From Escarpia spicata (taxonomy: Eukaryota; Annelida; Polychaeta; Sabellida; Siboglinidae): a stretch of DNA of 64,000 nt. The position numbers were made by a program, and so were the translations under genes. The notes beneath the pieces are model-generated. The model did no database searches, was not told the DNA's origin, and saw nothing but the letters and a program-made list of their open reading frames with translations. The DNA lies in contig OZ023206.1 of the NCBI GenBank assembly GCA_963995525.1, forward strand, positions 8,025,989-8,089,988, in the 5' to 3' direction. Below, one piece after another: positions 31,201-50,600 of this stretch. Numbering within the stretch: the stretch's first letter is position 1; every line of letters begins with the position of its first letter.

Positions 31201-34200
31201 AGTTATCTTAGCAGTCCACATGAATCCAATTTTATTCAAAACAATGAATGCGAATGGGCCTATATACACTATATAAGTCGACTAGGTTTCGCCGAGCTTG
31301 GGCTCGTTTTCAGAATAATTATAGCGAATGCAACCAACGAGAGATAATCTACACCAATAAACATACACAGCAAACATATATCGTATCCAGCTACAGAAAG
31401 TAACGTGTATAATCTCATAATATCACTAGAATATCGATGTATGAAGGAGGAGTTGTACAATTTATCATAACATCTTAAATCAGTCAGTGAATTTCTATCG
31501 GTCCTGTATTTTTTTTATTTTTTTTATTTTTTATTTATTCGACACAAAAATGAAAATATGGGAATTATATAACGGTGTTTCTAAATTTTATTTATCCAAA
31601 CAAATATAATGTAATGGATATATAATTTATTCATTGTATATATATATATATTGTACGGTAATATATTGTAATTATATATCTGAAAACAAATGGTGATCTG
31701 TCTGGATAAATAAAATTTAGAAACATCGCGTTATATATAATTACCATTTTTTCATTTTTGTGGCGAATACATAATTACTACCAAAATATTTACAAACAGT
31801 GCATCATAGTATAACAATTATTTGGTTTATATTATTACTTCGTGAAAACATAAACCAAAAAGTGTAAAAAAACCAATGGTTTGGTGTGGGGATTGAACCG
31901 GCGTCACCCGATTACAAAACAAATGCCAAGGAACCAATGCATTTACTAACTGAGCTAGCAGACAGAAAGTCACTGACTGATTTAAGCTGTTATAATAAAT
32001 TGTACAACTCCTCCTTCATACATCGATATTCTAGTGATATTATGAGATTATACACGTTACTCTCTGTAGCTGGATACGATATGTTTGCTATGTATGTTTA
32101 TTGGTGTACATTATCTCCCGTTGGTTGCATTCGATATAATTATTCTGAAAACGAGCCCAAGCTCGGCGATACTTAGTCGACTTGGAGGCCCATTCGCATT
32201 CATTGTTTTGAATCAAATTTTATTCACGTGGAACCGTAAGATAACTGCTTGTTCCTCTATGACTAGTGTTTGTATTTAATCAGAATATTGCACAATAACT
32301 CATTCTGAAAAGCTATAATTGTAAACATGCTCTGAATGCATGGAAAGGGTCGGCCTGATGCAAGTCATAAGTGACATCACATCTCGGCATCCCAAAAAGC
32401 GCGCCAAAAATATGCATATTCGAAAATGTCCGGATGCACAGCATTAAATGTGGAATTTCTAATTAATTGATTTTTTTATTGTTTGTGGCTTGGTGGACAT
32501 GGAAATAGATAGCAGGATGTAATGTAACATGAATTCAAGCCATAGATGTTTTTATTCCCTTTAAGTTAAACACAATGGCAGATATTTTGTTGGTCGTTAC
32601 ATTGAGGGTGTTACTCATCTTCTTACTTATGTTTACCTTTTGTTGGTTTCTCCAATGAGGATGTTACTCATCCTCTTACTTAAGTTTACCTTTTGTTGGT
32701 CTTTCCAATGAGGATGTTACTCATCCTCTTACTTAAGTTTACCTTTTGTTGGTCTCTCCAATGAGGATGTTACTCATCCTCTTACTTAAGTTTACCTTTT
32801 GTTGGTCTCTCCAATGAGGATGTTACTCATCCTCTTACTTAAGTTTACCTTTTGTTGGTCTTTCCAATGAGGATGTTACTCATCCTCTTACTTAAGTTTA
32901 CCTTTTGTTGGTCTTTCCAATGAGGATGTTACTCATCCTCTTACTTAAGTTTACCTTTTGTTGGACTTTCCAATGAGGATGTTACTCATCCTCTTACTTA
33001 AGTTTACCTTTTGTTGGTTTCTCCAATGAGGATGTTACTCATCCTCTTACTTAAGTTTACCTTTTGTTGGTCTCTCCAAAGAGGATGTTACTCATTCTCT
33101 TACTTAAGTTTACCTTTTGTTGGTTTCTCCAATGAGGATGTTACTCATTCTCTTACTTAAGTTTACCTTTTGTTGGTCTCTCCAAAGAGGATGTTATTCA
33201 TTCTCTTACTTAAGTTTACCTTTTGTTGGTTTCTCCAAAGAGGATGTTACTCATTCTCTTACTTAAGTTTACCTTTTCTTGGTTTCTCCAATGAGGATGT
33301 TACTCATCTTCTTACTTAAGTTTACCTTTTGTTGGTCTCTCCAATGAGGATGTTACTCATCCTCTTACTTAAGTTTACCTTTTGTTGGTCTTTCCAATGA
33401 GGATGTTACTCATCCTCTTACTTAAGTTTACCTTTTGTTGGTCTTTCCAATGAGGATGTTACTCATCCTCTTACTTAAGTTTACCTTTTGTTGGTCTCTC
33501 CAATGAGGATGTTACTCATCCTCTTACTTAAGTTTACCTTTTGTTGGTCTCTCCAATGAGGATGTTACTCATCCTCTTGCCGAGAGCTGTCTTTGACGGT
33601 CGTTTCTCCGCCAGTCTCTCGCTGCTGTGAGACTGACTCAAACTACTTGCTACAACAGACACCAGGGGGCGCAAGTGATACATCACCACTTGCCTCCAAA
33701 TTTCACGAACCAGGTTTGTCTATGTTAAAATCAACAATGTGTAGATCGTTTTAGTAATATCTGCATTGCATACTTTTGTTAAACTCATCAAACGAACTGA
33801 TTTTGATCGTTAACTTGTTTTGCGGTAACTTGTTTGAATAACCTACTACTAGCTTACACACCCCTATGAAGCAGCCCACCAGTGACATCAATTTTCACCA
33901 TTACTGTATTTTTGTAAAACTTGTTCCTACAGTGGCGACCTCTGGAGAAGAGTGGTTCACAACTTAATTCTTACATGTAGGAGAGAAGCCCTCTAGAAAA
34001 AGCATGGCATGTTAAAAATACATATGTAAATAACTCTACTTAAATAATAATTACTGTTTTCTGAAATGCATCGCAAATTGGTAGATCACAGGCCAATGCT
34101 CCAACCAAATGGACACAGAACGGGTCTAGTGGACCTGAGCACCTTGGAGGAGATGCACATAAAATACTCCAAAGTCACCATATCAATATATACACAGCAT

Positions 34201-47600: not shown

Positions 47601-50600
47601 CTGATTGGCCAGTTATTTATAGGGATAAAAGTGTTCTTCTTCTTCTTCCATTTAATGCCAACAATCATCAAGTTGTTGATTATTCTGGCATTGAGAGTTT
47701 AGAGAATGAGATCCCAGCTCGGTGAGTCCATGACAGTTTTTTCTCCATTTTCTTGTGTGGGACCTTTTACTTCCCCTGGCACAAACACCACATAGAAGGG
47801 ACCAACAGAAAGAGCATCTCTTCCAAAAGACACAGGCATCGTAGGGTGAACATAGTTGCAATTTATCAAACCATCGTCCGGCGGCACCAGGGTTCAAAAC
47901 TCGGTCCCCCCGAATGACAGTCCAGCATTCTATCCACTTGACCACTGCACTCCCTGTTGTATGGCTTTAGACCGACTTTCAAGTAAAAATGCAGATTTAC
48001 AGCAATAATGCATCCAGTCTGTAGTATGCCACGTGTATGTGTCGTACAGGTTCTGGCTTCTGGCTGCGGATGATGGCAATCCAAGAGCCAGCATCAAGGC
48101 TCAGACAGCTCTAGGTCTGTTCTATACACAGGAAGAACAGACCGATCTCAAGAAATCCTTCTTCTGGCATTCCGAGGCTTGCGGAAACGGCAGTCTGGAA
48201 TCACAAGGTCAGTCTAGATTTACAAGTTGTTCTCCTCTTGTTTCCCTGCCATCAGGGTGGGAGCTGGCCTCGATTCCGATCTTCAATTTCATTATTATTT
48301 TTCTTTTTTCCTCACTGATCTTGCACTGTCTCTCCACCAATTGTGTCCTTCTCCTCTGTCTTTTGGAACAACCCTTGAGATCTTTGACTTCCACTCCAGA
48401 TGTAATAAAAGATTGATAACATTGGTTTAATTTTACATTGGTGTATTTTTACATCGCTACTCTGGTGTATTGCTACAGGTGCCATGGGAGTGATGTACCT
48501 GACAGGGAGTGATGTACCTGACGGGGGTGTGTTGCAGGTGCGATGGGGGTGATGTACCTGACAGGCCTGTGTGGGAAGCAAGATGATGAGGCAGCCTTCA
48601 TCTGCCTGCGTGAGGCGGCGGAGCGGGGGAATGTCTTCGCCATGGGTCACATGGTGGCCTACTACTACAAGAGGAAGCTCTACACGAAGGCTGTCGATCT
48701 CGCCATAAGGTTAGTCGGCTGGACACTGCAGGAGGTGTCAATTCAACATGTATCACAATTGTCCGATCCTGTAGATCATCTTAGAACGTCTACGTCCAAT
48801 ATCAGACAAAATATCACAATAGCCTCTGTTTTGTCAGCATTGAGTTTGAGTTTATTCATGTGCATCCAAGTTTGTATTTCAGCGACACATACTTATATGC
48901 GCTTCAATTGTGTCTTCCTCCAAGAGAGGACTGAAGGCGATATAGAGTTTGGTGGCATCAACATGTACATTCCATGCCGACGTGCGATATCACCGAGTGG
49001 TGCCATGTAACAAATGAACATGAGCGGGCTGAGAACGGAACCTTGCGGGACTCCGAACATCACTGGACTTTCCGCTGATTCTCTGCATGCATTTGAATAC
49101 TCAGACGTCGGTTAATCAAATGCAAATCAAACTATGCAAGAGATGTTCCAGTTATTCCAAAACGATCTCTGAGGCGTGATAACATGATTCCATGGTCAGT
49201 TGTGTCAAAAGCTGCTGAGATATCTAGTAGCACAAGTATGGCATCCATGCGCTAATCCAATATACAAAGCAGATTGCTGCATACTCTCGGCAGTGCAGTC
49301 TCAGTGCTGTGGTGTGGACGCTAAGCAGATTGCTGCATACTCTCAGCAGTGCAGTCTCAGTGCTGTGGTGTGGACGCTAAGCAGATTGCTGCATACTCTC
49401 AGCAGTGCAGTCTCAGTGCTGTGGTGTGGACGCTAAGCAGATTGCTGCATACTCTCGGCAGTGCAGTCTCAGTGCTGTGGTGTGGACGCTAAGCAGATCG
49501 CTGCATACTCTCGGCAGTGCAGTCTCAGTGCTGTGGTGTGGACGCTAAGCAGATCGCTGCATACTCTCAGCAGTGCAGTCTCAGTGCTGTGGTGTGGACG
49601 CTAAGCAGATCGCTGCATACTCTCAGCAGTGCAGTCTCAGTGCTGTGGTGTGGACGCTAAGCAGATTGCTGCATACTCTCGGCAGTGCAGTCTCAGTGCT
49701 GTGGTGTGGACGCTAAGCAGATTGCTGCATACTCTCGGCAGTGCAGTCTCAGTGCTGTGGTGTGGACGCTAAGCAGATTGCTGCATACTCTCAGCAGTGC
49801 AGTCTCAGTGCTGTGGTGTGGACGCTAAGCAGATCGCTGCATACTCTCGGCAGTGCAGTCTCAGTGCTGTGGTGTGGACGCTAAGCAGATCGCTGCATAC
49901 TCTCGGCAGTGCAGTCTCAGTGCTGTGGTGTGGACGCTAAGCAGATCGCTGCATACTCTCGGCAGTGCAGTCTCAGTGCTGTGGTGTGGACGCTAAGCAG
50001 ATCGCTGCATACTCTCGGCAGTGCAGTCTCAGTGCTGTGGTGTGGACGCTAAGCAGATCGCTGCATACTCTCGGCAGTGCAGTCTCAGTGCTGTGGTGTG
50101 GACGCTAAGCAGATCGCTGCATACTCTCGGCAGTGCAGTCTCAGTGCTGTGGTGTGGACGCTAAGCAGATCGCTGCATACTCTCGGCAGTGCAGTCTCAG
50201 TGCTGTGGTGTGGACGGTAAGCAGATTGCATTTGCTCATAGAGTTCCTTGTCAGATAGGTGTTTGGAGAAACGGGCAGCAACGACCTTCTCTGCAATTTC
50301 TGACACAAAAGACAAGTTCGACACTGGATGATAGTTCTCTAGGTCATTTGGGTTCAGTGTTGCTTTCTTCAAAAGGGGAGTTATGATAGCCTTTTTAAAG
50401 GCGGAAGGAAAGACTTCTGTCGTAATCGATAAGTTCACAATGTCGGTGATGACTGGTGCCAAAGTGGATATTTTGGCCTTCAGCAGATGAGTCAGAATCG
50501 GATCCAACTTGCACAATTTACAAGCCGACTTGCTGACCAATTTGGTGATCTCATGTGTTGTGGTTGGCAGGAACGATGATAGATGTGACAAGACAATACA

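Follow-up and report, generated by a model that had tools for sequence, protein, structure and literature searches.

Mirage-type minisatellites at exon–intron boundaries of conserved genes in the tubeworm Escarpia spicata, with an apparent preference for acceptors

Why do minisatellites come to lie on exon–intron junctions again and again, multiplying the splice sites of genes that must still be read correctly? The question is raised by a stretch of animal nuclear DNA of 64,000 nucleotides from the tubeworm Escarpia spicata (C2:8025989-8089988 of a 1.06-Gb genome; this whole stretch is called the window here), which holds WDR11 on the minus strand and most of LRP2BP on the plus strand. An earlier note on this DNA had named four junctions in the two genes as tandemly duplicated and had judged them too many for chance. 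The arrays are present as named, and junction-spanning arrays were also found in four of six independent genes sampled elsewhere in the genome. They are probably minisatellites of the mirage type, tolerated because the copy flush with the exon stays intact, and biased in their distribution towards acceptors.

In these arrays, a stretch straddling a junction is tandemly repeated, so that each unit carries the splice site together with the neighbouring edge of the exon; the array itself sits to the intron side of that exon. An array was counted as spanning where it covers 3 nt or more on both sides of a junction. Tandem Repeats Finder (TRF) gave 76 rows in the window, which were combined by hand to give 38 arrays with a total of 12,763 bp. 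Five of the 31 arrays within the gene interval span a junction, and they are given here with the exons that they flank:

32585..33578, minus strand: array over the WDR11 exon 7 donor, 53 bp x 18.8 (TRF)
33538..33649, minus strand: WDR11 exon 7, flush donor after 33538
35647..36762, minus strand: array over the WDR11 exon 5 acceptor, 59 bp x 19 (TRF)
35516..35689, minus strand: WDR11 exon 5, flush acceptor at 35690
37198..37370, minus strand: array over the WDR11 exon 4 donor, 35 bp x 4.8 (35/70-bp), 9 exon nt (TRF)
37362..37515, minus strand: WDR11 exon 4
48486..48565, plus strand: array over the LRP2BP exon 5 acceptor, ~20 bp x 4, 28 exon nt (TRF)
48538..48709, plus strand: LRP2BP exon 5
22353..22410, minus strand: two-copy duplication over the WDR11 exon 15 acceptor, 30 bp x 2 (TRF)

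The first four of these arrays are those named before, and both the TRF arrays and the gene models place all four junctions inside them, with 41, 43, 9 and 28 exon nt respectively; the exon numbering also agrees with the gene models. The fifth, at the exon 15 acceptor, is an addition to that list. In the exon 7 array, each unit joins 41 nt of exon edge to 12 nt of intron, and 18 complete copies carry AG/GTAAAC, the string by which they were located, while the partial copy at the far end stops before it. The exon 5 array of WDR11 contains 19 AG acceptors, each followed by the 43-nt exon edge with small changes. This edge aligns with human WDR11, which suggests that the exon was copied into the intron and not the reverse. 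By eye, the LRP2BP exon 5 array is a single 59-nt duplication of the acceptor, its decoy AG lying 59 nt upstream of the flush one, and the exon 15 array likewise holds a single decoy, whose AG is lost.

Two further signals are fainter. LRP2BP exon 1, proposed earlier as a possible fifth case, does show some trace of a copy, but a weak one (20/32 matches; a local score of 17, where the best of 300 shuffles reached 16). The WDR11 exon 27 donor may have a degenerate copy at about 6931, 110 nt into the intron from the junction at 7041, with 22/32 matches; its local-alignment score of 16 does not exceed that of shuffled sequence (maximum 19). In addition, two arrays abut WDR11 acceptors without spanning them:

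29368..29465, minus strand: array 10 nt from the WDR11 exon 9 acceptor
15168..16269, minus strand: array 11 nt from the WDR11 exon 20 acceptor

The host genes are these:

4071..41961, minus strand: WDR11, 30 coding exons, 1,231-residue frame (spliced alignment, reading by frame, protein hits)
44392..52684, plus strand: LRP2BP, coding exons 1-6; one more exon, expected at the 3' end, was not located

Exons were located with human WDR11, which served only this purpose and whose matches run along the minus strand, one exon after another, from about 42 kb to 4 kb. The start of WDR11 exon 24 is uncertain, and the stop-free frame of 1,231 residues holds when that start is moved. Translation via the flush sites is free of stops, and 1,070 of 1,175 aligned residues match WDR11 of Ridgeia. 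With 956 residues of the protein as query, identity to the Ridgeia piscesae protein is 85%, and among the matches listed the other 119 proteins are at most 58% identical (Branchiostoma 50%). By this measure the host looks like a siboglinid tubeworm, and amphioxus, considered at first, was rejected as the host. LRP2BP contains Sel1 repeats (Pfam). Exon 20 of WDR11 (14988-15156), whose acceptor abuts a 1.1-kb array in the window, is absent from the Ridgeia WDR11 record, with 1 of 56 residues aligning; boundary arrays may therefore mislead annotation.

The simplest alternative is that no positional preference exists, and that in a minisatellite-rich genome some arrays fall on junctions by chance and are then noticed. 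The window, chosen because it is striking, cannot settle this question by itself, since the outcome depends on the null model. Where arrays are placed at full length and at random in the gene interval, overwriting what lies there, 7.6 spanning arrays are expected against the 5 seen, which favours chance. Where a single unit is placed as a seed, 1.1 are expected (1.7 with the longest periods), giving P = 0.003-0.023; this weakens to 0.08 or 0.26 once the weakest two or three hits are left out. In a search for nearby copies of the 32-mer that crosses each junction, 6 of 70 junctions reached 22 matches or more where 2.7 would be expected (P = 0.05, circular shift); thresholds of 21, 23 and 24 matches gave P = 0.27, 0.13 and 0.06.

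Six independent genes, conserved and rich in exons, were fixed as a sample before their sequence was seen: VCP, CLTC, DDB1, UBA1, XPO1 and AP2B1. The coordinates of VCP, not its sequence, were known before the list was fixed, and XPO1 is covered in part (9.5 kb). Gene models came from a spliced aligner with a human template, which places 40 of 57 WDR11 junctions exactly and whose DDB1 model holds one stop. Junctions near arrays were read by eye, whereby 13 exon edges were corrected and 3 tiny exons dropped; these corrections created two spanning acceptors (CLTC GILRT, VCFACV) and removed two spanning donors. The aligner called the UBA1 exon 12 and CLTC exon 28 donors spanning; on reading they were rejected, the first 9 and 5 nt of intron, respectively, lying outside the arrays. 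Boundary-spanning arrays number six in CLTC (one donor and five acceptors, with up to 29 copies), one in VCP, one in AP2B1 and two in XPO1, and none was found in DDB1 or UBA1. Over all eight genes, 15 of 94 arrays have units that span an exon–intron junction. The array load is high, as the chance explanation would have it: arrays fill 14.6 of 38 kb in CLTC and 8.4 of 38 kb in WDR11. Among 11 background genome tiles of 10 kb, 23% of the sequence is array; two tiles are wholly tandem repeat and three hold some N.

Enrichment was assessed with one unit as the seed, over 94 arrays (period at least 10 bp) and 292 junctions in the eight genes, of which the six independent genes supply 67 arrays and 224 junctions. 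An array was called abutting where its end lies within 30 nt of a junction without crossing it; both this limit and the division into acceptors and donors were chosen after the data had been seen. For any junction in the eight genes, 15 spanning arrays compare with 8.6 expected (P = 0.02). The excess lies with the acceptors, of which 12 are spanned against 4.3 expected (P = 0.0005) and 10 abutted against 3.4 (P = 0.002), whereas the donors give 3 against 4.3 and 5 against 3.4 (P = 0.26), respectively. In the six independent genes, spanning acceptors number 9 against 3.2 (post hoc, P = 0.004) and acceptors either spanned or abutted 17 against 5.8 (post hoc, P = 0.0003), while donors are unenriched at 1 against 3.2. 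With donors as an internal control for acceptors, the binomial P is 0.016-0.035. The acceptor excess is present at every abutting limit from 0 to 80 nt, and in the eight genes it holds for arrays of at least three copies, for basal periods and with seeds barred from exons.

Several results weigh against this reading. The prespecified test, which took any junction in the six independent genes, does not reach significance (10 against 6.4, P = 0.10). Of the 9 spanning acceptors in these genes, 5 come from CLTC; when it is left out, the spanning count falls to 4 against 2.0 (P = 0.13), and spanning and abutting together still stand at 10 against 3.6 (P = 0.0015). Uncorrected junctions give 7 spanning acceptors against 3.3 (P = 0.039) and 3 donors against 3.3. 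Under the overwrite null, all counts are below expectation, both in the six genes (acceptors 9 against 19, donors 1 against 19) and in the eight (12 against 24.9 and 3 against 25.1). This null, which lets arrays erase exons, is judged inappropriate because arrays insert and do not overwrite. In the window, with arrays unreduced, local repeats cover junction positions at no higher a rate than positions 60-100 nt from them, and at a lower rate than positions at a distance of 250-400 nt. The window genes by themselves show no clear difference: for acceptors 3 compare with 1.1 expected (P = 0.08), for donors 2 with 1.1 (P = 0.29).

The suggestion that arrays seed at junctions more than chance allows is thus partly supported, for acceptors and post hoc, and not for junctions as a whole. 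Preferred seeding at junctions in general was rejected as stated, given the any-junction result in the six genes and the dependence of the window result on the null. An acceptor preference appears to replace it, one that was recognized post hoc, relies in part on one gene and needs a genome-wide test. Pure chance draws support from the array load, the full-length placement in the window, the any-junction result and the donors, which do not exceed expectation; it is nevertheless unlikely, as the acceptor excess in the six genes persists across abutting limits with donors as control.

The mirage-type reading, with tolerance as its core, can be set out as follows. A duplication that crosses a boundary would be tolerated at any unit length, since the flush copy leaves the coding sequence intact and the splice site functional, unlike a duplication inside an exon, which would alter the protein. 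Arrays would then grow and homogenize by slippage or unequal exchange, as other minisatellites of this repeat-rich genome presumably do, and the spliceosome would use the flush copy, the use of decoys being wasteful and not functional. Such tolerance would account for arrays at junctions, but not for the excess of acceptors over donors. Reasoning from first-come splicing even predicts the opposite bias, as the flush donor is transcribed first among its copies and the flush acceptor last. The excess may reflect either a mutational hotspot where introns end, on the 3' side, or a better tolerance at acceptors. Simple tracts before acceptors were considered as its cause and rejected: compared with 135 donor flanks and 340 mid-intron stretches, 120 acceptor flanks free of arrays show no greater periodicity or simplicity, and are richer only in G+T (0.60 against 0.52-0.53). 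We tentatively raise the possibility that 3' intron ends are hotspots of minisatellite birth in the tubeworm lineage, at about three times random seeding for acceptors and without enrichment at donors. Such a pattern would point to a process linked to acceptors, such as R-loop formation, polymerase pausing or a complex bound at the branch site, or else to splicing machinery with an uncommon capacity to pass over dozens of almost identical acceptors upstream.

What the decoys would do if used bears on a further alternative, namely poison splicing, in which they lower or tune protein output via truncated transcripts. Upstream acceptor copies were counted by 16-mer match in 12 acceptor arrays over the eight genes. 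The copies had been said to keep their AG or GT, and this is so for 114 of 126 acceptor copies and for the 18 complete exon 7 copies, but 12 of the 126, including the exon 15 decoy, have lost their AG. It had also been held that use of a decoy would introduce an early stop, and the predictions agree that the product would be truncated or shifted. None of the 114 AG-bearing decoy acceptors would yield a frame-keeping, stop-free product. For WDR11 exon 5, all 18 decoy acceptors keep AG, none is benign, and the 16 read individually all meet a stop; the sole decoy of LRP2BP exon 5 is not benign either. With any of the 17 decoy donors of exon 7, the codon immediately after the flush junction is a stop, and reading on through the WDR11 exon 4 donor gives GCA GGT TAG.

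Such uniformly non-productive predictions speak for poison splicing, but intronic insertions of this size would usually be non-productive regardless. Moreover, substitutions in the exon 7 array amount to 0.024 per site, and the chance of an unbroken series of GT/AG without selection is about 0.17, which is approximate, the string AG/GTAAAC having served to find the copies. Purifying selection on the decoy GT of exon 7 is thus not needed, the unbroken series being compatible with the low divergence. With the host genes unrelated and AG lost in some of the acceptor copies, the suggestion of poison splicing finds no evidence here, and we regard it as very improbable.

The arrays could also be intermediates of intron gain or boundary shift, as has been proposed for tandem duplications and for the amphioxus globin mirages; published work is cited here from excerpts. 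The same structure was put forward as a source of new introns in the amphioxus globin paper (PMC3087553, excerpt). In WDR11, however, the exon edges flush with the arrays encode residues that align with Ridgeia WDR11, and no inserted exon is seen there, which leaves this explanation with a very small probability, below that of poison splicing. Assembly error, with copy numbers or entire arrays as artefacts, has a precedent in an amphioxus mirage misassembled in the draft genome (supplementary legend of PMC3087553, excerpt), but it is scarcely credible here, as units differ by scattered substitutions, the assembly is of chromosome scale (C1 = 90 Mb) and the same structure recurs in four further genes.

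The window contains other repeats and possible traces of mobile elements. An array of 56 bp in 17 copies lies at 49267-50226; its minus-strand frame at 50088-50723 resembles what we take to be a piece of reverse transcriptase from a long interspersed nuclear element (LINE), and Pfam returned no family for this frame. Minisatellites may thus also seed inside mobile elements. A plus-strand open frame at 45360-46140, in LRP2BP intron 1, resembles what is presumably the C-terminal part of a LINE reverse transcriptase. By eye, 31020-31520 and 31980-32400 look like inverted copies on either side of about 500 bp, and could belong to a mobile element that has terminal inverted repeats. Stretches at 40800-40970 and 47850-47960 look by eye like a tRNA or a short interspersed nuclear element; ARAGORN found no tRNA in the window.

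Mirages in conserved annelid genes suggest that minisatellite-rich animal genomes in general may form them. They also represent natural tests of splicing: as many as 29 nearly identical acceptors follow one another, and for the protein to be made a single one has to prevail. For annotators, they are a warning, since the distance between a decoy copy and the true exon edge is a few dozen bases. Should the acceptor excess hold across the genome, the birth or survival of minisatellites would be tied to the 3' splice site, which to our knowledge models of slippage do not predict.

The system with which these arrays are best compared is the amphioxus mirage, the original paper on which reportedly concerned Adh. 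As in mirages, the units include the exon–intron boundary (the 15 arrays in eight genes), and many, not all, carry AG or GT, as the counts of acceptor copies and the far-end partial copy of exon 7, which ends before the GT, illustrate. A single authentic boundary copy keeps the frame, with WDR11 stop-free via its flush sites and aligned with Ridgeia. A human minisatellite of the G1P3 type with multiple splice donors is said to have been reported in 1995, its copies providing splice sites in the transcript. It shares with the tubeworm arrays the multiplication of splice donors, and differs in concerning one human gene, donors only, and copies reportedly used as splice sites in the transcript.

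Variable internal tandem repeats at human exon–intron boundaries, with 27 intron modifications, are similarly of minisatellite size and placed at the border, but according to the excerpted text they lie in recent segmental duplications and alter transcripts (PMC2812944). The tubeworm arrays, unlike these repeats, occur in conserved genes and are known from DNA alone. Within annelids, an excerpt on earthworm metallothionein describes intronic minisatellites and exon 4 duplicates outside the transcript (PMC12783039). The excerpted Ridgeia genome paper makes no mention of boundary arrays (PMC9921365), and in the open-licence literature, as far as excerpts extend, neither boundary-spanning arrays in annelids nor an acceptor preference was found.

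In amphioxus, the excerpts describe minisatellite units that straddle the boundary, RT-PCR (reverse transcription PCR) suggesting that splicing is left undisturbed, and a proposed role in intron gain (PMC3087553, PMC3902484); the units measure 10-160 bp according to the globin paper (PMC3087553). The tubeworm units likewise straddle acceptors or donors, carry AG or GT with part of the exon, vary in size and leave one authentic copy. They differ in their annelid host, in reaching up to 29 copies with several arrays per gene, and in a measured preference for acceptors; in amphioxus, splicing and length variation are reported in the excerpted papers, whereas the present arrays come from the DNA of one assembly. 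The structure is of the amphioxus mirage kind, which is already known, and it is new in the annelid lineage as far as the open-licence literature shows.

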